From Kiritimatiellia bacterium (GTDB lineage Bacteria > Verrucomicrobiota > Kiritimatiellia > RFP12 > UBA1067): DNA of 64,000 nucleotides. Below, one piece after another: positions 19,328-47,239 of the stretch. How positions within the stretch are numbered: the stretch's first letter is position 1; each line of letters begins with the position of its first letter. The notes under the pieces are model-generated. The model was not told the origin of the DNA, did no database searches, and saw only the letters and a list, made by a program, of their open reading frames with translations. The stretch is from positions 1 through 64,000 of the forward strand of contig JAFPUH010000001.1 in the NCBI GenBank assembly GCA_017395505.1, in the 5' to 3' direction. Both the position numbers and the translations under genes were made by a program.

Positions 19328-19348
19328 CCAAAATTGAGGATTATTTGG

Positions 19349-34990: not shown

Positions 34991-36045
34991 TTAGATACCA
35001 ATATAGCGGCAATGGTCTTTCGGATTCGTCTTTGCCGCTGATGACGATTCATGCGCTGTTTTACAATCAAGCGCAATTTGCGAAGGCGACATTAGAGAGC
35101 ATGCTCGCCCAGACCTACGGCAATACGGAGGTCGTGGTATCCGACGACTGTTCGCCGGATGGAACTGGCGATGTATTGCTAGAGGTTGCAAAAAACTATA
35201 AAGGTCCGCACAAGGTAGTAGTCAACATCAACGAAAAGAATCTGGGCATCGGCGACCACTTTGCGCATGTCTTGTCGCTTTCGCATGGCGAGTGGCAGAC
35301 TTCTCTTGGCGGAGACGATATCGCCGAGCCCGACTATCTGCAGACAATATACGGCTACATCAAGAGATATCCAAATGTCGTCTCCATCGGATCGTCTGCA
35401 TTGAAGATCGACGAAGAGGATAATGTAATTGGCGAGGCGTATGTCGTAAGCGAGCCCAAGGTCTATCCTAGATATGAGTCCGGTCCGCTGACTTATTCCT
35501 TGAATCCCGGTGATGATGTTGCAGTCGTTCTTGTAACGGGGTGTGTGGCGACATTCAGCAAGAAACTTTTGGAAGCGCTGCCATTCCCGCGCGGCATAAT
35601 GGCGGAGGATGCGTTTTTGGGCTTCCGCGCATCGCTTCTGGGGGATGTATTGTTTATCCCGGAGAAGTGTGTAAGGCAGCGGATAAATGGTGCAAGCATA
35701 ATGCGAAAGGGTCGGCTTTCAAAAGGCCGGGCGGAGAGAAAGAAGTTTCGCCGTCGCATGTCGGCAATGACATTTACAACGCTTGATGCAGTACTGAAGG
35801 AGGTCCCGCTTTTAAGAGCCGATGTCAATAGCGAAGCTTTAGACACACTTTTGTTTGAAGTTTCAGAAAGTCTGCTCGGCTCATTTTACGTGCCCGATCC
35901 ATTAGGCGCCAATTATCCCAAATACCGTGAGGCGGTGCGCATGGTTTTGAGACGCAAGAGCATATTTAAGGTGCTGGGTTATGCGAGGGCAAGAGGTCTG
36001 TTTTGGCCCACACTTAAGCTGATGGTGAAAGGAATGTTTTCATGA
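34987..36045 (+). CDS. Glycosyltransferase family 2
   Basis: A 352-residue GT-A enzyme. [20 protein letters not shown] begins the nucleotide-binding fold, [16 protein letters not shown] gives the acidic pair, and [13 protein letters not shown] the DXD-like metal site near 117. GTG start overlapping the previous stop. It probably extends the repeat unit of the surface glycan. Its stop overlaps the ketoisomerase start by ATGA. Confidence 0.9.
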
Positions 36046-36452
36046 CACCCATTGCAGAGGTTTTGGAGTTTCCTATTCATGGCGACCACACGGGATCGCT
36101 CGTAGCGTTGGAGAAGGGGGATGATTTTCCCTTTGAGATAAAGCGCGTATACTACATTTGGGGGACGGCTCCTCACGTCGTGCGTGGCCATCACGCCCAC
36201 AAGAATCTCGAGCAGGTCGTCGTCTGCACTTCGGGTTCTTGCGACTTCATACTGGACGATGGAACAAGGCGCGAAACATATCACCTCGCCTCGCCTGCGA
36301 AAGGGCTTCACATAAAGAACAATGTCTGGCGCGAATTCACCAACTTCTCGCCAGACTGCGTCGTCATGGTGCTCGCGAGCGAGCACTACAACGAAGCAGA
36401 CTACATCCGCAACTACGACGACTTTTTGCGGAGCGTGGGTAAAGGGGCTTAG
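36042..36452 (+). CDS. fdtA: dTDP-4-oxo-6-deoxyglucose 3,4-ketoisomerase (FdtA/QdtA cupin)
   Basis: A 136-residue cupin. RVYYIWGTAPHVVRGHHAHK near 35-55 holds the histidines of the active site, and the barrel closes with KGLHIKNNVWREFTNF. It would start the branch from dTDP-4-keto-6-deoxyglucose to a 3-amino-3,6-dideoxyhexose. The likely acetyltransferase (42.1 kb) and aminotransferase (46.1 kb) of the same branch lie farther on. Gene name is by family; FdtA (galacto) and QdtA (gluco) cannot be told apart from motifs. Confidence 0.88.
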   Translation: MTPIAEVLEFPIHGDHTGSLVALEKGDDFPFEIKRVYYIWGTAPHVVRGHHAHKNLEQVVVCTSGSCDFILDDGTRRETYHLASPAKGLHIKNNVWREFTNFSPDCVVMVLASEHYNEADYIRNYDDFLRSVGKGA

Positions 36453-37592: not shown

Positions 37593-38621
37593 TTAGACTA
37601 GGCGCTTTTTTTGTAATCTCTTGCGTATTTTATTGTATACGAAGAGCATTATTCGATATTTCAGCTTGATCTTCTTGCCTTTTGCTCCTGCATCGTTAAA
37701 AGCAGAAATCAGCTCCCTGTTTTTATGGCACGACGAGGCAACATTGAAGAACATTTCTTTTATATAATCGGCGAATGCAAAATCCTGATTCAATTCGTTT
37801 AACGCCACAACGCACAAAGATAGGTTTTTATACGCCTCGTAGAAGAAAAATGCATTGTATTTATCTTCAAAATATGCATTGTAATCCAAATAGCATTGTG
37901 CCTGTATGATGTTTTTCTCAAATTCCGTCAGTCGAGACCAAATGCCCGATGTCAGAAGACGATAAATGCCACTTGGCTTGGGGTCGTAGTGGGCTTTACC
38001 ATATTTCAGATGCATCAGATACCTGTCAAAATCTCCCTCAAATGAACGTTCCGAAATTGTGCCCACGGCCTTTTCCATTATACTGGGAACGCCGTTGATA
38101 AAAATCACATTCCGAAAAAACGTCCCTGTGGTTTGCGTCATGCAGATGCTGCGCTTAAAGTAATCGTCCAACGTAAAATCAGAAGAAGAGATATTTTGCG
38201 GGACAAACAAATGCTCGCTGCCATCTTCTGCCTGACAAACGACATTCCTGGAATATATGACATAATCAGGATGTGAGTCCAAGAAGTTGACAGCACTTTG
38301 CAGATAATCCATATCAGTCCAACAGTCATCCGCATCAAGCAAACAGAAGTATGGGGTTTTTGTTATGGCCTTGGCTCTTAATACATTCTTGAGATACCCA
38401 CCATTCTCCTGATTGTAAAGCACCTTTATCTTTTCTGGAAATTTGGCTTCGTATTGCTTAATTATTTCAACGCTTTTATCTTTTGTCGAGAAATCATCAG
38501 TAATAAGCAACTGGAAAGCGAAATCCACCTTTTGGTTTAAGACGGATTCAATTGCACAGGAGACATATTTCTCCTGATTGTAATTGGACATAATTACGGT
38601 TACTTTGCAGTCTCCGCGCAT
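37593..38621 (-). CDS. Glycosyltransferase family 2
   Basis: A 342-residue GT-A enzyme: VIMSNYNQEKYVSCAIESVL, QLLITDDFSTKD and CLLDADDCWTDM (DXD near 95). The codon usage and AT-rich DNA differ from the core genes, which suggests transfer. The start overlaps the upstream gene end by 22 bases. It is the last gene of a three-gene minus-strand unit with the 467-residue protein and the GNAT/FemAB-like gene. Confidence 0.9.
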   Translation of the reverse strand: MRGDCKVTVIMSNYNQEKYVSCAIESVLNQKVDFAFQLLITDDFSTKDKSVEIIKQYEAKFPEKIKVLYNQENGGYLKNVLRAKAITKTPYFCLLDADDCWTDMDYLQSAVNFLDSHPDYVIYSRNVVCQAEDGSEHLFVPQNISSSDFTLDDYFKRSICMTQTTGTFFRNVIFINGVPSIMEKAVGTISERSFEGDFDRYLMHLKYGKAHYDPKPSGIYRLLTSGIWSRLTEFEKNIIQAQCYLDYNAYFEDKYNAFFFYEAYKNLSLCVVALNELNQDFAFADYIKEMFFNVASSCHKNRELISAFNDAGAKGKKIKLKYRIMLFVYNKIRKRLQKKRLV

Positions 38622-40003
38622 ATCTTCTTCCTCCGGCGCCTGTAGCTGATCTTTATGAACCCAAAAATAACAATCGTCCGGCGCTCCCCGTTTTTTATTT
38701 TTTCAAACACCTTAACTCTAAAAGGTGCGCCTGCACATCCCCACCTTTCAAACCTCTTGATCATTTTGCAATCTTTGACATCCTTAGGGACTTCATGTCT
38801 CTTTTGCTTCATACTAAGCAAGACATCAAGTGTTATAAATTTTAATCCATGATAATAAAAATGATAATTGGGATTTTCAATGATCTTTTTCTTGGGGAAA
38901 GGATAATACTTTAACTCGCTATCATGATTTGATAGGGTTTCGGTCTGAACATCAAACGAACAGGGTCCATTATATAGGAAGTCAAAATCACTGCATTGCC
39001 TTAGCCCATATACACCAAATGGTGTGCTACCTGCTCCACATAGGCATTCAATGTCTACATTGTTTGAGGCTGCCACCACTTTCAGATCTTCAATCATTTG
39101 ATCAAATCTGATATCCTCGTAGATAAACGGGCGACGGTTTATCATTCTCAATGAATTTTCATTGAAATATGTCTCTGCCAACCATATTGCCTCTTCGCGC
39201 GAATCATTTATATGTATGCTGAAATTGCCTATTTTAAATAAATCTCGGATTTCACTCTTTGCCTTAATAACCTTCTGAATATCATCGCATACAAAAACAA
39301 ACACTCTTAATGGACTCTTGCCCATGCATTCTCTTGCATGCATTTGGGCGCCGGCAAATTTATTCGAAACAGTGCCGATCCACGGCTCTTTTTCCCAAAA
39401 TGAACCGTATGAAAGCTTCTTAAGATTGACATAGCCGTCGAAAGTGAGGCGGACACTTTTCTTATAATAAACAAAACCATACTTCTCCAGAATACTGACA
39501 ACCTCTGTGTCTTTTGCTTGGTCAGTTACAGAATGAAGGTTTACGATATATGCATTGGGGTTTAGTTTTACATATTCCAGTGCGCCAAAATCCATGATCT
39601 TAGGATCCATCTTCTGACAGATGAAGAACCTATAATCATATAGATCACGCCTCCCGTCTGGTTCCGTTGCAACACCTTTGTTTAAATATGCACAAACAGA
39701 AAGCCTATGTGCGCCATCGCTTATCTCACCATTATCGCCAATAGGAACGAGCCCCTTTGATTCATTATATCCTACACCTTTTATAGACTCATATAAAGCA
39801 TCAAAACTTTTTAGGAAATCGGCGGGGGAATTTTTGGGCTTTCCATCACTAGGCTCATCTTCGTGAAAATCGTTAAACGCCCTGATGCTTTCTAAATAAG
39901 CAGCTCTTACAAATTGATTATCAGGATACTTTAAATATAAAAACTTGAAGATCAGGTCGAATCTTCTTTGCTTAAGAAATAACAGTCTCGCATCATGTAT
40001 CAT
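38600..40003 (-). CDS. Two-domain protein: ParB/Srx-like N-terminus, nucleotidyltransferase-like C-terminus
   Basis: A 467-residue protein I cannot assign. Near 85-105 GLVPIGDNGEISDGAHRLS resembles the substrate loop of ParB/sulfiredoxin-like folds. The C-terminal third has CGAGSTPFGVYGLRQCSDFD (GS...DFD), like a nucleotidyltransferase active site. A region with VFVFVCDDIQKVIKAK lies between. AT-rich, foreign-looking DNA. The start at 40003 overlaps the previous stop by ATGA. A role in modifying the surface glycan is inferred from neighbours only. Confidence 0.6.
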   Translation of the reverse strand: MIHDARLLFLKQRRFDLIFKFLYLKYPDNQFVRAAYLESIRAFNDFHEDEPSDGKPKNSPADFLKSFDALYESIKGVGYNESKGLVPIGDNGEISDGAHRLSVCAYLNKGVATEPDGRRDLYDYRFFICQKMDPKIMDFGALEYVKLNPNAYIVNLHSVTDQAKDTEVVSILEKYGFVYYKKSVRLTFDGYVNLKKLSYGSFWEKEPWIGTVSNKFAGAQMHARECMGKSPLRVFVFVCDDIQKVIKAKSEIRDLFKIGNFSIHINDSREEAIWLAETYFNENSLRMINRRPFIYEDIRFDQMIEDLKVVAASNNVDIECLCGAGSTPFGVYGLRQCSDFDFLYNGPCSFDVQTETLSNHDSELKYYPFPKKKIIENPNYHFYYHGLKFITLDVLLSMKQKRHEVPKDVKDCKMIKRFERWGCAGAPFRVKVFEKIKNGERRTIVIFGFIKISYRRRRKKICAETAK

Positions 40004-40935
40004 AGAGATATCTCCCAAGTATTATAGACCGCAGTTCTTCCACCAAAGCCCTCCTTTTGGCTTATCAGGCCTTCGTTCAGAATACGCCCATCGTCTTCAG
40101 TGGAAATTCCAAAGTCGAAATACGCCTTTGTCTCAGCAAAACGATCCATCAAGGTTTTGATCAACAAGTCTAAACCGCCGATTTCACGTGCGCTTTCGTC
40201 GGCTGCCATATATTGCGTATGCACCACATCGCCGTAAACAAAAAGCAATGTCGCCGCAATCATCCGCCCCTGCCATTCCGCAGACCAAAGTTGTATGTTG
40301 TCGCAGAACCTTGATTTCAACAGGTGCAACTCTTCGGAATTATGAACGGCTTTTGTCGCATGGCGTTCGCCCAATACGCTGTTCTCCAGCTGGATGAAGC
40401 CGTCGAAGTCTGTTGACTCCTTTACGGACACCCCCTCACGCTTCGCCCTGGAAACTTGCGCCTTGCGTCCCTTCGGCATCTTGAAGGGCCTTTTCAGCGC
40501 CACCGTGGTGGAAGGCTCGACCTTCAGGAGATGGGCGCCGCTTCTGTATAGTGCATATAGATCCTCTTCTGCAGGGCTATGATGGAATATGTGCGGAATT
40601 GTCTTATATATGATTGTCTTCACGCCGCATTCGCCGTAATGCCGCTTCATTGCGTCAAAGCATTCCAGCATGGTATGCTGCTTCATCTGCTCGCCGTATA
40701 TCATGCCGCCATACGTAAGTCCGCCGTGTGAGATAATCTTCTCACCATGCGCGGAGGCAGGCAATACCGCCATCAGATCATTGTCCCTGTATAACATGAG
40801 CGAGGCATCTTTAAACCTGTCGGAATGATAATCCATATAGCCGCGTTCAAACATGAACATCGGCATCCTTGAATTCTGGACGAATCTGTCCCAGATTTCT
40901 AGGTCGTTGGATGTGTATGGCCGTATGGCAATCAT
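40000..40935 (-). CDS. GNAT/FemAB-like acyltransferase
   Basis: A 311-residue protein of the FemAB/GNAT-like group found in exopolysaccharide clusters. It has WDRFVQNSRMPMFMFERGYM near 15-35, KGRKAQVSRAKREGVSV near 155, and a C-terminal GNAT-like core with MIAATLLFVYGDVVHTQYMAA and FDFGIST. It may attach an aminoacyl or acyl group to a sugar. AAAGGA precedes ATG. The likely promoter is at 41064-41069. Confidence 0.75.
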   Translation of the reverse strand: MIAIRPYTSNDLEIWDRFVQNSRMPMFMFERGYMDYHSDRFKDASLMLYRDNDLMAVLPASAHGEKIISHGGLTYGGMIYGEQMKQHTMLECFDAMKRHYGECGVKTIIYKTIPHIFHHSPAEEDLYALYRSGAHLLKVEPSTTVALKRPFKMPKGRKAQVSRAKREGVSVKESTDFDGFIQLENSVLGERHATKAVHNSEELHLLKSRFCDNIQLWSAEWQGRMIAATLLFVYGDVVHTQYMAADESAREIGGLDLLIKTLMDRFAETKAYFDFGISTEDDGRILNEGLISQKEGFGGRTAVYNTWEISL

Positions 40936-40978: not shown

Positions 40979-40996
40979 GTCTTCTGTAGCACAGAA
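40979..40996. repeat. 18-bp inverted repeat, left copy (beside recombinase)
   Basis: Its complement, TTCTGTGCTACAGAAGAC, recurs exactly at 42076-42093, and the recombinase gene lies between. Each copy is also a small dyad, TTCTGT-(3 nt)-ACAGAA, whose 3-nt centre is AGC here and GCT in the other copy. Confidence 0.8.
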
Positions 40997-41063
40997 CCGT
41001 GAGGCTGATGCGCACACGGCGTAGAACATAGGACGTAGGTGTGGTTTGTTATCATCACTGCGT

Positions 41064-41069
41064 ATTATA
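41064..41069 (-). promoter_or_regulatory. Extended -10 box of the GNAT-like gene unit
   Basis: Minus strand TTTGGTATAAT. Eight bases on is an ATG (41055) opening a 26-codon frame that ends at 40975. The GNAT-like gene starts 40 bases after that, so the small frame could be a leader peptide or chance. Confidence 0.55.
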
Positions 41070-41141
41070 CCAAATTTTACAGCGTGGTGGGGAAAATAAT
41101 TTGCTATGATGGACTGAACTTGAATCGAAAGGAATTACATC

Positions 41142-42059
41142 ATGAATCCAGATAAAACAACGTTTGCAGACATACTGTCCGCCTACACAAAAGCCGCGAG
41201 AGCAGAACGAGCAGCCACTGGTTCGCCCTGCGAATCAACCGTCAAGACAAACATTGGCACCACAAGGAACATATTGAAGAGGTGCAATATCTCAGAGGAT
41301 GCGCCTCTGTCAAGTCTCACGCGGCAGATGTTGGCGGATTATGTAGTGCAATGCTGCGAGTGCGGTAGGCCATTGATATCGATCAAAAGCGACATTGAGC
41401 GTCTGAACGCGCTTTTTGCAATATGGACAGAGCCGCATTACGAGTATCTGCTTGGAGCGGAGTTGGGCCGCGCATTCCGATTTCCGGTACCGAGAGTGAA
41501 AGCTAGCGCTCAACGCTACACGCGCCCTGCGAGGGAGCTGCTGATGGCGGTCAAGGCATGGTATGCAAATCTTCAAATGAACGCCAGATGCGAGGGGAAA
41601 TGGATCGCGGCGACGTTGATGCTTGAGTTTGCTATGCGCAATGGTGACATCGGGCGTCTCAGATGGGACAATATAGTGGAAAAGGACGGCCGTTGCTATC
41701 TGTCGTATACGCCGCACAAGACCAAGCTTTCGTCTGGGCGCATCGTGGTTTGGCCGGTGCATGACGACATATGGAAAGTGCTCAAGGCAATCAAAGCCAA
41801 AAGCCGTAACGAACTTGTCCTTCCCAGGGCGGCGGGGCAGATCGCACGCATAACGAGAGAGCTCCGAAGCATGGGCTTCAGAGGCAGCAAGGGAGCGTAT
41901 GAACTTCGAAAAATCTGCATTGATCATGTCTACCAGAACTATGGAGCGGAAATGGCAACATCCATCAGCGGAGACAACCTAAAAACGATTTTGCGCTACT
42001 ATGCCGATCCGTCCGCCCTCAATGTGATGGGCGTGCGCATATTCGACCTGATCAAGTAG
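41142..42059 (+). CDS. Tyrosine recombinase/phage integrase-like protein
   Basis: A 305-residue site-specific recombinase. The N-terminal core-binding part (CESTVKTNIGTTRNILKR) precedes a catalytic domain with the first arginine in AMRNGDIGRLRWDN near 165, YELRK near 252 in place of HxxR, and a tyrosine in ILRYYADP near 285. The usual GH before the tyrosine is not clear, so activity is uncertain. AAAGGAA precedes the ATG. Exact 18-bp inverted repeats flank the gene, suggesting a self-contained or invertible unit. Confidence 0.82.
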   Translation: MNPDKTTFADILSAYTKAARAERAATGSPCESTVKTNIGTTRNILKRCNISEDAPLSSLTRQMLADYVVQCCECGRPLISIKSDIERLNALFAIWTEPHYEYLLGAELGRAFRFPVPRVKASAQRYTRPARELLMAVKAWYANLQMNARCEGKWIAATLMLEFAMRNGDIGRLRWDNIVEKDGRCYLSYTPHKTKLSSGRIVVWPVHDDIWKVLKAIKAKSRNELVLPRAAGQIARITRELRSMGFRGSKGAYELRKICIDHVYQNYGAEMATSISGDNLKTILRYYADPSALNVMGVRIFDLIK

Positions 42060-42075
42060 GTCGTCTGTATTATTC

Positions 42076-42093
42076 TTCTGTGCTACAGAAGAC
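42076..42093. repeat. 18-bp inverted repeat, right copy (beside recombinase)
   Basis: TTCTGTGCTACAGAAGAC, the exact reverse complement of 40979-40996. It starts 17 bases after the recombinase stop. As a dyad its arms extend to 8 bp (TCTTCTGT/ACAGAAGA), so it could also end transcription. Confidence 0.8.
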
Positions 42094-42123: not shown

Positions 42124-42567
42124 ATGAGCGCATTCATACATCCATTATCTGACGTGCAGTCGCAGAATATTGGTGATGGTACTCGCATTTGGCAGTACTG
42201 CGTTGTGCTCCCAGGTGCGAGGATCGGCAGGAACTGTAATATCTGCTCGCACTGCTTTATTGAGAATGATGTTGTCATTGGCGACAATGTTACAATAAAA
42301 TGTGGGGTTCAGATCTGGGATGGGATGCGCATAGAAGATAATGTCTTCATTGGTCCCGATGCGACATTCTGCAATGACCGCCATCCAATTTCTGGCAATG
42401 GGGCTAACTATAAGCTCGAGCCTGTAATTATCCGGAAAGGGGCGATGGTTGGCGCTGGGGTTACAGTATTGCCAGGCGTTGAAATTGGGGAAGGGGCTGT
42501 GGTTGGCGCGGGGACTACAGTTGTGAAGAGTATTCCTGCTACGGCGACATTCTTGGGGGGCAGATGA
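42124..42567 (+). CDS. dTDP-aminosugar N-acetyltransferase, hexapeptide type
   Basis: A 147-residue beta-helix acetyltransferase like FdtC/QdtC/Wla[53 protein letters not shown] and [20 protein letters not shown]. These match transferases that N-acetylate dTDP-3-amino-3,6-dideoxyhexoses. Together with the ketoisomerase at 36.0 kb and the aminotransferase at 46.1 kb it completes the pathway. GGGAG precedes ATG. It overlaps the truncated GT8 by ATGA. Confidence 0.88.
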
Positions 42568-43028
42568 AAACGATACCCATATTCTTTAGTTTTGATGACA
42601 ACTATGTAAAGCCGGCGGCAGTTGCATTTTGGTCTTTACTGGATAAGGCGGATAAAAATGTTTCATACGATATGTATGTATTGCATCATGACATATCTAA
42701 GGAGAATCAGGCGTTCCTTTCATCGATTGTGGAAAAGGCCGGCAATGCAAGGCTGATATTTAAGGATACTGGTGGGTTTTTTTTAAATGAGTGGCGGGAG
42801 GGCAACTATGAAGGGCACCAGACTCGAACGCAATTTACGTCTGATACCTTGGTGCGATGTTTTGCCGCCACTATGTTCCCCTATCTTGATAAAGTGATAT
42901 ATTCAGATGTTGATGTCGTGTTTGCTGACGACATTTCCGAACTTTGGAACATAGATGTTTCCGAATCAAGGACAGCGTGTCCGAAAATCTATCAGTCAAA
43001 GTGCCGAAAATCTATCTGTCAAGCTTGA
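42564..43028 (+). pseudogene. Truncated GT8 glycosyltransferase
   Basis: The first 130 residues are a normal GT8 start (FFSFDDNYVKPAAVAFWSLL, and VIYSDVDVVFADDISELW as the DXD region). It then runs into unrelated sequence and stops at residue 154, about half the length of the intact homologue at 30.4 kb. The break is near 42970, just before the direct repeats at 42981-43022 that lead into the ATPase gene. No remainder of the GT8 is found downstream. The product would lack the acceptor half, so it is very likely inactive. Confidence 0.85.
42981..43022. repeat. Direct repeat at the left edge of the first ATPase module
   Basis: CCGAAAATCTATCAGTCAA at 42981-42999 and CCGAAAATCTATCTGTCAA at 43004-43022: 18 of 19 bases match, period 23. 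The first copy begins at the break in the GT8 gene. Part of the unit (TGCCGAAAAT) recurs near 44479-44488. Confidence 0.85.
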
Positions 43029-43065
43029 CACCCGACGCCACCCCCGCCCATACCGAAATTCACGG

Positions 43066-43095
43066 TTGACACGCAGATACTAAGAATGATATAAT
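43066..43095 (+). promoter_or_regulatory. Promoter of the first ATPase gene
   Basis: TTGACA (43066-43071), an 18-base spacer and TATAAT (43090-43095). AGATAC and GTATCT arms flank the -10 box. Confidence 0.7.
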
Positions 43096-43129
43096 TCGCG
43101 TATCTTCAAATACTAAAACTGGGATAAAA

Positions 43130-44341
43130 ATGGAAGTCGCAGATACTAAACAGCTCTTGGCGGCGTCTGATCGCCTTATTTCACGCGTTCCCATGGAACG
43201 CAAGAGATACCTGTTCCCTCGCGTTGACTGGAATGACCGCCTGATTTGCATAAAGGGTCCGAAGGGGACCGGGAAAACGACCCTGATTCAACAACACATA
43301 CGTGAAACGTTTGGTATCGGCAGCGACAAATGCGTCTATATGTCGGCCGACCACATTTGGTTCGCTAAACATGACATTTTGGATGCCGTTGATTATTTTA
43401 ATTCCCATGGTTTCACACACATATTTATAGATGAAATTCATCATGCCGATGAATGGTCTCGGCTTGTTAAGACAATTACCGACACATATCCCGACCTGAA
43501 TGTCGTTTACAGCGGTTCTTCCATACTCAAACTTTCATCGGGAGAGGCAGATCTCTCAAGACGCCAAGCCTCGTATAATCTGAAGGGGCTTTCTTTCAGG
43601 GAATTCCTCTCGTTTGAAGGTGTCATGGATGAGAAGGTTCTTTCTCTTGAGGACATCATATCCCACCATCGTGCCATTGCAACCGACATCTCTTCACGCA
43701 CAAAGATTCTTCCGTCGTTCGAGAAGTATCTCAAGATTGGGTATTATCCGATCTATAAAGGCGTCTCAAGCCAATTCGAGGAACGGTTAGTAGAGATTGT
43801 CAACAGCGTCATAGATGTGGATTTCCCGATAATAGAAGACTTCACCCCGGCAACGCTACGGAAAGCCAAGAAGATGCTTATGGTGCTTGCGGAAAGTTGC
43901 CCTCAGCATCCGAACATGTCGAACCTTTATCGGGAGCTTGAAACGAATCGAAATCTCGGACTGAAAATGCTTGAAGCCCTCGAAAGAGCGGAACTCGTCA
44001 TGTCAATAGATTCTGGTAATGCAAAACTCAAGCATCTCTCGAAACCGGAGAAACTGTTCCTCGGCGATACCAATCTGATGAATGCAATCGCCCCAAGCAC
44101 GAACTCAGGGGCAATAAGGGAAACCTTCTTCGCCTCTCAACTTCGTGCCGCATCACACAAGGTCGTTGCGCCGCTTGCCGGTGACTTCTGCGTTGACGAC
44201 AGATATCTCTTTGAGATTGGCGGCCCAAGCAAGGGTTTCGACCAAATCAAGGACATCCCGGATTCCTATGTGGCTCAAGATGGGGTGGAGACAGGAATTG
44301 GCAACAAAATTCCGCTTTGGCTATTTGGCTTCCTGTATTGA
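43130..44341 (+). CDS. AAA-type ATPase with DUF4143-like C-terminus
   Basis: A 403-residue P-loop protein. Walker A GPKGTGKTT is at 43-51, Walker B HIFIDEIHH near 100, and sensor-like VVYSGSS follows. A helical middle and a C-terminal domain with FCVDDRYLFEIGGPSKGF recall nuclease-like folds in this family. Such ATPases are widespread accessory genes of unknown role. It has its own promoter and ends the damaged GT8, so it looks inserted. The start is at MEVADTKQ; no strong ribosome site is seen. Confidence 0.85.
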   Translation: MEVADTKQLLAASDRLISRVPMERKRYLFPRVDWNDRLICIKGPKGTGKTTLIQQHIRETFGIGSDKCVYMSADHIWFAKHDILDAVDYFNSHGFTHIFIDEIHHADEWSRLVKTITDTYPDLNVVYSGSSILKLSSGEADLSRRQASYNLKGLSFREFLSFEGVMDEKVLSLEDIISHHRAIATDISSRTKILPSFEKYLKIGYYPIYKGVSSQFEERLVEIVNSVIDVDFPIIEDFTPATLRKAKKMLMVLAESCPQHPNMSNLYRELETNRNLGLKMLEALERAELVMSIDSGNAKLKHLSKPEKLFLGDTNLMNAIAPSTNSGAIRETFFASQLRAASHKVVAPLAGDFCVDDRYLFEIGGPSKGFDQIKDIPDSYVAQDGVETGIGNKIPLWLFGFLY

Positions 44342-44433
44342 GACTCTGCGAGGGTGGGGTGGAGAGTGGCGGAGTAGCCCGCTTGGGGCAGGCGATTCCC
44401 ACCCGATGGTTTTGCGAAAAGCAACAAATGATA

Positions 44434-44526
44434 GGTTCACCTAAAGGCAGAAATCCTGTTTAGGTGAACCAAAAGTGATGCCGAAAATTGGTTCACCTAA
44501 TTACCAAAATCGCAAATAGGTGAACC
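44434..44526. repeat. Four GGTTCACCTA boxes in two hairpins before the second ATPase gene
   Basis: GGTTCACCTAAA (44434-44445) with TTTAGGTGAACC (44459-44470) is a perfect 12-bp inverted repeat. GGTTCACCTA (44490-44499) with TAGGTGAACC (44517-44526) is a second pair. The last box ends nine bases before the -35 box. The 250 bases between the ATPase genes hold nothing else. Confidence 0.9.
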
Positions 44527-44534
44527 TGCGCCTA

Positions 44535-44564
44535 TTGACATAACAGAAAGATTAATGGTATAAT
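44535..44564 (+). promoter_or_regulatory. Promoter of the second ATPase gene
   Basis: TTGACA (44535-44540), an 18-base spacer and ATGGTATAAT (-10 at 44559-44564). A TATGGAGGA ribosome site follows before ATG 44593. Confidence 0.75.
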
Positions 44565-44592
44565 ATGCACGATTTATGGAGGAACTACGGAT

Positions 44593-46029
44593 ATGAATTT
44601 CTTTGGCAGGGATGCTGAGATGGCGGATCTAATGTCGCTTTGGGGGAAACGAAGCGGATCTCTTGTGACATGTCGTGGTCGCCGTCGCATAGGTAAGTCT
44701 ACATTGATTGAGGCTTTTGCCAACAAGTCAAAAGCTCGGTTTATACGGATTGAGGGATTGCGACCCAAGCCAGAGTATTCTAACAAGACGGAGTTGATGA
44801 CATTTGCGAGGGAGCTTGCCACGCAGACGCAGGCGGAAGACAGCATACCAGACAATTGGCTTAAGGCGTTCATTCGGTTGGATCGCGAGATAAACGACAA
44901 GGAGAGAACGATCGTCTTGCTTGATGAAGTGTCATGGTTAGGGCATTATGAGGCAACATTTGCTGACATGGTCAAGGTAGCGTGGGATGAATATTGGTCC
45001 AAGCATGATCGTCTGGTCGTTGTCGTGTGTGGTAGCGTATCGGGCTGGATCAAAGAGCATTTTGTTGACAACGGTGCATTTTTCGGACGGCGTTCGCTTG
45101 ACCTTGTTGTCAAGGAGCTGCCGCTTAGGGAGTGCACTAAGTTTTGGGGTAGTGCGGCTGGCCGGGTTGAGATTCGGGAAATTATCGATGTGCTGTCTGT
45201 GACTGGAGGCGTGCCAAGGTATCTACAAGAAATAGATCCGGGGATGTCTGCTTCTGCAAATCTTGCAAGGCTGGCGTTTCGGCCTAGTTCAATCCTGCGT
45301 ATCGACTTCGACGAGATGTTTTCGGATGTGATTACAAAGCTTCCGACGCTTTCGGGGAAGATTATTCGAGCGCTTGTGAAATGTCCACTTACCGTTTCTG
45401 AAGCCGCGATTGCTGTTGGTGCCGGCAAAGGAGGCAAGATAGGCGAGGCCCTGGAGCAGCTTGAAGAGGCTGGCCTTGTTGCATCGGATGCCGGCAAGAA
45501 TCCTGAGACGGGTCGGATTGCACGAGAGGTCAAATATCGCCTGAAGGATAACTATTCGCGTTTTTACTTGCGGTACATCGAGCCGAGAAAGGAAATAATA
45601 GACGCCGGAGCCTATAGGTTCGTATCGTTGGATGCTCTGGATGGATGGGACTCTATCATGGGGCTTCAGTTCGAGAATCTCGTGCTGAATCATTACGAGG
45701 CCTTGATTGAGCCTCTTCACATTGGCAATTCTTTAATCGAGTCGGCAGCCCCGTATTCGAGGAGGAGAATGGGAAATGGTCCTGATGGACTTCAGATAGA
45801 TCTTCTTTTGCAGACCAAGTACAGCAATTATATAATTGAGATAAAGCGCAAGCGCGAGATTGGAATGGATGTTATTGGCGAGGTAGAGAGAAAGATTCGT
45901 AAGCTGTCGACTCCTCGCGGCAAGTCGACACGTGCTGCGCTTGTCTATGATGGAACTCTTGCGCCTGGGATTGAGACGGACGGATATTTTGATGCAATAA
46001 TACCATTCAGTATGTTGTTGGGCCTATAA
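44593..46029 (+). CDS. Archaeal-type ATPase with DUF234-like C-terminus
   Basis: A 478-residue protein: Walker A GRRRIGKST at 29-37, Walker B IVLLDEVSWL near 105, a winged-helix part near 260-320 (KIGEALEQLEEAGLVASDAG), and a C-terminal nuclease-like domain with LQIDLLLQTKYSNYIIEIKR (D...EIK) near 400. This is the domain order of STAND/MNS ATPases joined to DUF234. The function is unknown. It has its own promoter and repeat array and sits between dTDP-sugar genes. Confidence 0.88.
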   Translation: MNFFGRDAEMADLMSLWGKRSGSLVTCRGRRRIGKSTLIEAFANKSKARFIRIEGLRPKPEYSNKTELMTFARELATQTQAEDSIPDNWLKAFIRLDREINDKERTIVLLDEVSWLGHYEATFADMVKVAWDEYWSKHDRLVVVVCGSVSGWIKEHFVDNGAFFGRRSLDLVVKELPLRECTKFWGSAAGRVEIREIIDVLSVTGGVPRYLQEIDPGMSASANLARLAFRPSSILRIDFDEMFSDVITKLPTLSGKIIRALVKCPLTVSEAAIAVGAGKGGKIGEALEQLEEAGLVASDAGKNPETGRIAREVKYRLKDNYSRFYLRYIEPRKEIIDAGAYRFVSLDALDGWDSIMGLQFENLVLNHYEALIEPLHIGNSLIESAAPYSRRRMGNGPDGLQIDLLLQTKYSNYIIEIKRKREIGMDVIGEVERKIRKLSTPRGKSTRAALVYDGTLAPGIETDGYFDAIIPFSMLLGL

Positions 46030-46147: not shown

Positions 46148-47239
46148 ATGATACCGTTTCTATCGTTGAAAGACCTCAATAACCGCTTCCGCGCCGAAAT
46201 CGATGCGCGGATAAAGACCATCCTCGACAAAGGGTGGTATTTGCAGGGCGAGGAGAACGAGCGCTTCTCCAAGAACTTTGCGGCCTACTGCAGGGCGAAG
46301 GGTGCGGTCGGCGTTGCAAACGGACTCGATGCCCTCAACCTCATAATCCGTGCATACGGTTTCGGTCCTGGCGATGAAATCATCGTTCCGGCCAATACAT
46401 TCATCGCGACGATTTTGGCCATAAGCGAAAACGGCTGCACGCCTGTGCTAGTCGAGCCGGATATCGAAACCTATTGCATCGACCCGGAAAAGATTGAGGC
46501 GGCGATCACGCCGAAGACGAAGGCCGTGATGGTTGTGCATCTCTATGGACAGGCCGTGCCGATGGAGAAGATATGGGCATTGCAGGCGAAATACGGATTC
46601 AAGATTATTGAGGACGCCGCCCAGGCTCATGGCGCAATCTATCAAGGGCGCAGGACAGGCAATCTCGGCGATGCCGCAGGGTTTTCGTTCTATCCCGGCA
46701 AGAATCTCGGCGCAATGGGTGACGCCGGCGGAGTGACGACGAACGATCTCGATATTCTCGAGAAGGTCAAGGCGATCGGCAACTACGGCAGCGACAGGAA
46801 GTATCATCACATCTACAAGGGCGTCAATTCGAGGCTCGATGAGATTCAGGCTGCGGTCTTGGATGTTAAGCTTGCGCATCTTGACGCCGACAACGCAAGG
46901 CGCCGCGAGATATCGAAGCTCTACCGCGAGCGCATTACGAATCCACGCATAATCCTGCCGAAAGCCTATGACGAGATGGCCCATGTCTGGCACCTGTTCG
47001 TGATTCGCTGCGATGATCGGGACGGCCTGGCGGCGTATCTTAAGGAGCGCGGAATCGAGACGAACATACATTATCCGATGCCGCCTCACAAGCAGGGCGC
47101 GTATGCCGAATGGGCCGAGAGGTCTTATCCGATAACGGAGAAGATACACCGCGAAGTCTTGAGTTTGCCGATAAGTCCGACAATGACGGATGAAGAGGCT
47201 CAGCGTGTTATCGACGCTGTGAATATGTGGAATGCCTAG
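46148..47239 (+). CDS. fdtB: DegT/DnrJ/EryC1 sugar aminotransferase (FdtB/QdtB type)
   Basis: A 363-residue PLP enzyme that would turn a dTDP-3-keto-6-deoxyhexose into the 3-amino sugar. VPANTFIATILAISENGC and IEDAAQAHGA place the cofactor; the lysine is in SFYPGKNLGAMGDAG near 185. ETNIHYPMPPHKQ is typical of the VioA/FdtB/QdtB branch. Its partners lie at 36.0 and 42.1 kb. It is separated from the acetyltransferase by the two ATPase modules, and has its own promoter. Confidence 0.9.
   Translation: MIPFLSLKDLNNRFRAEIDARIKTILDKGWYLQGEENERFSKNFAAYCRAKGAVGVANGLDALNLIIRAYGFGPGDEIIVPANTFIATILAISENGCTPVLVEPDIETYCIDPEKIEAAITPKTKAVMVVHLYGQAVPMEKIWALQAKYGFKIIEDAAQAHGAIYQGRRTGNLGDAAGFSFYPGKNLGAMGDAGGVTTNDLDILEKVKAIGNYGSDRKYHHIYKGVNSRLDEIQAAVLDVKLAHLDADNARRREISKLYRERITNPRIILPKAYDEMAHVWHLFVIRCDDRDGLAAYLKERGIETNIHYPMPPHKQGAYAEWAERSYPITEKIHREVLSLPISPTMTDEEAQRVIDAVNMWNA

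Follow-up and report, generated by a model that had tools for sequence, protein, structure and literature searches.

A tyrosine recombinase gene between short inverted repeats: a candidate promoter inverton at a glycan locus of a Kiritimatiellia bacterium

The window analysed here, a stretch of 64,000 nucleotides, comprises positions 1-64000 of a 74-kb contig (C17) from a Kiritimatiellia MAG of 1.8 Mb and 56 contigs. It harbours a tyrosine recombinase gene bracketed by a pair of 18-bp inverted repeats, and the neighbouring genes are predicted to function in sugar modification and glycosyl transfer (Table 1). The two 18-nt arms are identical and lie 1079 nt apart, yielding a segment of 1115 bp with the repeats included. 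To its left extends an operon that begins with a FemAB/GNAT-like gene, and to its right one that begins with an FdtC/NeuD-like acetyltransferase gene. Further out lie fdtA (at 36042) and a DegT/fdtB-like gene (at 46148).

In the stretch 42564-46029, which lies between the fdtC-like and the fdtB-like gene, the family 8 glycosyltransferase gene breaks off near position 43000. Two AAA-ATPase genes come next, each under a predicted TGNTATAAT promoter of its own. From fdtA (36042-36452) to the fdtC-like gene the distance amounts to 5.7 kb, holding four minus-strand genes along with the recombinase unit, and this separation suggests an insertion or an older inversion.

Table 1. Features of the recombinase segment and its flanking operons (window coordinates)
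Feature	Position	Strand	Details
Left operon, family 2 glycosyltransferase	37593..38621	-	Pfam 86 bits
Left operon, second gene	38600..40018	-	No Pfam match
Left operon, first gene, FemAB/GNAT-like	40000..40935	-	Pfam Acetyltransf_6 38 bits, TIGR03019 47.8 bits
Left inverted repeat	40979..40996	+	GTCTTCTGTAGCACAGAA, dyad TTCTGT-AGC-ACAGAA, within leader of FemAB-like operon
P1, predicted promoter element facing FemAB-like operon	41064..41072	-	TGGTATAAT, 137 bases from start codon
P2, weaker promoter-like element	41102..41110	+	TGCTATGAT, 40 bases before recombinase gene
Divergent tyrosine recombinase, 305 aa, inside segment	41142..42059	+	Pfam, PHROGs, AlphaFold2, Foldseek
Weak terminator-like hairpin at recombinase stop	42044..42063	+	2 such sites in region versus 1.3 expected
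Right inverted repeat	42076..42093	-	Exact reverse complement of GTCTTCTGTAGCACAGAA, within leader of FdtC-like gene
Right operon, first gene, FdtC/NeuD-like hexapeptide acetyltransferase	42124..42567	+	
Truncated family 8 glycosyltransferase	42564..43028	+	Profile positions 1-130 of 253 matched

Each of the two repeats is a dyad. The left one is of the form 6+3+6 and is shorter than the right one, which extends to 8+3+8 at 42074-42092 (TCTTCTGT-GCT-ACAGAAGA). A search of the 1.82-Mb genome recovered exactly two copies of the 15-bp repeat core and no third relative of the 19-bp form at up to three mismatches. No other exact inverted repeat in the entire 74-kb contig reaches 15 nt when gaps of 50-3000 nt are considered. 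The longest inverted repeat in 40 simulated contigs, which served as a control for chance, measured 13-17 nt; by length alone, the 18-bp repeat is thus rare rather than impossible by chance, but it also encloses a recombinase gene and has dyad symmetry within each copy. Inverted repeats bounding promoter invertons are 10-40 nt long (PMC11892184), a range that includes the 18 nt found here. The original prediction, which described exact 18-bp repeats around a recombinase gene, dyads with an asymmetric 3-base centre (AGC versus GCT) and a left copy within the leader of the GNAT-like gene unit, agrees with the sequence in these respects, while its spacings of 146 and 17 bases are corrected to 145 before the start codon and 16 after the stop codon.

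A dispersed REP/BIME repeat was rejected as the identity of the window repeat, because the latter has only two copies in the genome. REP-like palindromes near three other loci (L029, L068 and L071) have CTTCTGTAG in common with the window repeat. At L029 (13125-14336), a RAYT-like transposase gene lies between REP-like palindromes (AAGCTTCTACAGAAGGGTC) in the vicinity of a recombinase homologue. An exact 17-mer of the window repeat has three matches in IMG/VR, and no recombinase was matched beside these in the fetched stretches.

The recombinase matches the Pfam phage integrase family weakly (19.4 bits, below the cut-off) and a PHROGs integrase with an E value of 7.6e-10. An AlphaFold2 model built from an alignment of 45 sequences (pLDDT 90, pTM 0.77) displays the two-domain fold of tyrosine recombinases, and its best Foldseek matches are XerA, XerH, lambda Int and Cre (E about 1e-6 to 1e-5); a profile search among PDB sequences returned no relatives. 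Profile and predicted fold bear out the initial assignment as a recombinase and specify the tyrosine class, rather than a serine recombinase catalytic domain. R166, K193, Y253, R256, D278 and Y287 are among the residues invariant in all 45 sequences. Judged by the alignment, R166, K193, R256 and Y287 are the putative catalytic R, K, the R of the HxxR box and the nucleophile, respectively, and Y253 and D278 occupy places where His and His/Trp are usual. A His-to-Tyr change has likewise been reported for the IntDes subgroup (PMC8138268). Taken together, the invariant residues and the profile and fold matches argue for a divergent tyrosine recombinase that seems to have been preserved, with an active site that looks intact.

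Crossover sites of tyrosine recombinases are expected to consist of conserved arms and a variable centre. The most telling case is found on a phage-like IMG/VR contig (L105), the recombinase of which is 33% identical to that of the window. The longest inverted repeat of this contig is exact and 26 nt long, and its copies, 144 bp past the recombinase stop and 2.8 kb further on, are located on the same side of the gene. The core, CTCTGT-TGT-ACAGAA, equals the window's TTCTGT-AGC-ACAGAA at 11 of the 12 arm positions and differs in the centre. Throughout 768 kb of fetched sequence, the window copies left out, TCTGTNNNACAGA was confined to two loci: both repeat copies of L105 have it, and so does L092, in the equivalent position behind its 88%-identical recombinase. 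Between these two loci the site is identical at 29 of 29 nt, as compared to 77% identity of the surroundings. The same arms with a different centre beside a homologue make the window repeats look like the sites of the recombinase, and we infer that they are its crossover sites. A phage attachment core is an equally possible identity of the L105 repeat, and in that case, too, it would be the site of the enzyme. The segment between the 26-bp repeats (6173-9013 of L105) carries Fic-like, zinc-ribbon and repressor-like genes. At a further homologous locus (L080), the leader of a VGY gene (see below) holds a 6+3+6 dyad that overlaps a 20-bp inverted repeat and lies 17 bp past the recombinase stop, a position that corresponds to that of the right-hand dyad of the window.

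The absence of repeats next to homologous recombinases had been named at the outset, alongside a single orientation in deep reads, as an observation that would speak against an invertible unit, and the homologues answer in two ways. L105 and L092 carry the same dyad arms, whereas most homologues lack a bracketing repeat: among 44 loci, repeats immediately bracket the gene only in L064, where they are of an AAACTCC type that occurs elsewhere in the same genome, too. The inverted repeats of homologues, where present, mostly flank neighbouring genes. The window arrangement therefore constitutes a variant within the family.

Each window copy precedes a start codon by 31-44 bases, and the sense strand shows TTCTGTGCTACAGAAGAC in either case, as might be expected of operators or leader hairpins of two divergent operons, with the recombinase being coincidental or autoregulated through them. 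We regard such a regulatory role as improbable, since the genome contains no further copies, the dyads are not followed by a T-run, their positions relative to the promoters differ, and the same arms beside the L105 and L092 recombinases would be left unexplained. The folding of the leader RNAs is not unusual either (z -0.7 and -1.3), and an RNA hairpin or attenuator was rejected for this reason.

The recombinase is present in one copy in its own genome. Matches were found in 17 of the 58 genomes searched, its own included, and those that are close, within the genus, are about 45-47% identical. Searches of species genomes with the single protein identified no loci, and the alignment (profile) query identified 46, nearly all in Kiritimatiellae MAGs. 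Kiritimatiellae, represented in this analysis by MAGs only, occur in the guts of ruminants and other animals, and the MAGs of the relatives originate mostly from ruminant and other herbivore guts. The window protein forms a lone long branch inside a clade that comprises all VGY-linked members (moderate support).

Many relatives are tied to small surface-protein loci, in which a PEP-CTERM protein follows a protein whose N-terminus bears a conserved VGY motif. VGY proteins are scarce (fewer than 60 matches in 35 genomes), and one is present at 19 of the 44 recombinase loci, each of which spans about 9 kb or less. Inverted pairs of VGY and PEP-CTERM cassettes occur at L027, L028, L030, L032, L077 and L084 and possibly represent an undescribed surface-protein shufflon. 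Inverted repeats of 25-40 bp mark the 5' ends of their VGY genes; those of L027, L028 and L084 are exact, and one copy adjoins the recombinase. At the contig end of L028, the same repeat, in its copy on the promoter side, is joined to a start codon and signal peptide (MKKLTIGAISALCAAVAFG), and the inner copies apparently carry none; this arrangement looks like a shufflon-type expression site. The contigs of L062, L065 and L080 start or end flush with an inverted-repeat copy, which is a hint that assemblers met both orientations; at all three loci, however, the assembly runs through the partner copy, and such a break may also stem from a short assembly word. Another tyrosine recombinase, unrelated to the first (Pfam 82 bits; L100, G000:C29:17278-19981), is encoded in the genome that harbours the window and stands head to head with two genes, a VGY gene lacking a signal and a short one of secreted type.

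Given relatives on phage-like contigs (L104 and L105), the repeats might also be the ends of a small mobile element, a one-gene insertion that inserts and excises in the manner of RIT elements rather than flips. The unit indeed sits between genes, fdtC and fdtB, that are clustered without it in L103, where the relative of the FdtC-like gene adjoins fdtB. Yet, the unit is a single copy in the genome and holds predicted promoters for both neighbours, and neither the 50,697 phage records nor the 72,556 plasmid records searched contain a match. In addition, enzymes of this class ordinarily invert the DNA between two inverted sites of one molecule. A mobile element is thus unlikely in our judgement. 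For an empty-site comparison, the FemAB-like gene has no homologue among the relatives searched, and the FdtC-like gene has relatives whose divergence is too great for a junction to be defined.

The promoters within the segment are predicted from a motif, TGNTATAAT, that occurs 18 times in the contig versus about 2.3 times expected from base counts and that, where a gene start is assignable, mostly lies 14-60 bases ahead of it. Enrichment and position together suggest that it is probably the usual promoter element of the organism. Examples before gene starts, at window positions 19330/19346, 29470, 44556, 46088 and 50411, have the appearance of a strong extended -10 element. P1 at 41072 is a predicted promoter inside the segment that faces a flanking operon, as is characteristic of promoter invertons. 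P2 points at the recombinase gene and subsequently at the FdtC-like operon, for which no TGNTATAAT-type element of its own was found. As a conjecture, the hairpin at the recombinase stop may silence the right operon while the segment is in its present orientation.

We consider it probable that the 1115-bp segment is a Hin-like promoter inverton, which is flipped by its own tyrosine recombinase and underlies phase variation of a surface glycan. The enzyme would recombine the two 18-bp sites and thereby flip the segment in place. In the present orientation, P1 would drive the FemAB-like/glycosyltransferase operon to the left, and P2 would drive the recombinase as well as, possibly at a low level by read-through, the FdtC-like operon to the right. 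Since the repeats enclose neither operon's start codons, an inversion would exchange the promoters of the two operons. In the flipped sequence, which we built, TGGTATAAT is positioned at 42000 on the plus strand, 124 bp upstream of the FdtC-like start. After a flip the recombinase would face the FemAB-like operon and P1 would serve the FdtC-like operon, which likely results in a two-state switch of the surface glycan. The earlier proposal that inversion alters what lies upstream of the GNAT-like gene is thereby upheld and extended, as the P1 element inside the unit would be re-aimed at the FdtC-like operon. The inversion itself and its effects on expression and the cell surface are deduced from this geometry.

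The assembly contains one orientation only, which, along with the long branch of the window protein and the shorter dyad on the left, would also suit a locked relic, that is, a former inverton that lost the ability to flip through decay of the enzyme or a site. The frame is open, however, all residues invariant in the 45 sequences are retained and the 18-bp arms are identical, and we rate such a relic as very improbable. Beyond the promoter inverton at this locus, a more speculative scenario can be envisaged, which we put forward tentatively and with some doubt: an undescribed, Kiritimatiellae-centred family of tyrosine invertases might elsewhere in the group shuffle surface-protein cassettes, which lack signals of their own, into place behind one promoter and signal peptide, the window member having been redeployed as a self-contained two-way switch that provides one promoter for either divergent glycan operon.

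If the inverton reading is right, a defined recombinase family could be assigned to Kiritimatiellae. Its candidate site would be TCTGTNNNACAGA, and its targets would be of two kinds, surface glycans and PEP-CTERM-linked surface proteins. The literature searched, with most subscription journals lying outside it, yielded nothing on invertons or phase variation in Kiritimatiellae.

Among known systems, the layout resembles the flagellar switch of Salmonella. The hix sites are inverted dyads at the ends of the Hin segment, as are the repeats of the window unit. Both segments measure about 1 kb and contain a recombinase gene as well as an outward promoter (PMC9368917). Hin belongs to the serine recombinases and acts with an enhancer bound by Fis, whereas the window encodes a tyrosine recombinase with no enhancer known; the tyrosine enzyme thus places the window recombinase outside the Hin family, despite the Hin-like layout. 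In Akkermansia muciniphila, the cps1 capsule inverton is characterized by the motif CGGATT..AATCCG (PMC13343947; see also PMC11892184), and its repeats, like those of the window, are short inverted dyads at a surface-polysaccharide locus, which in Akkermansia is a capsule locus under their control (PMC13343947). A promoter lies inside both segments, that of the window being predicted by motif. The Akkermansia motif is absent from the window, the arm sequence of which differs; moreover, the recombinase gene is inside the window segment, and a flip, as deduced here, could serve both flanking operons. In Mycoplasma and Ureaplasma, Xer-like tyrosine recombinases are implicated in the inversion of surface-antigen genes, with inverted repeats in 5' coding or promoter regions, reminiscent of the VGY loci of the relatives (PMC3047005). 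In contrast, hosts and proteins are unrelated, and the window case concerns a glycan locus. RIT elements resemble the window in that a tyrosine recombinase coding unit is located between inverted repeats, but they are mobile and comprise three recombinases, whereas the window unit has one recombinase gene, in single copy, rather than three adjacent ones. These "recombinase in trio" elements are mentioned in PMC8138268. On balance, the window unit is best read as an established type of switch that here appears in a new lineage, uses a new site and encloses the gene of its own recombinase.
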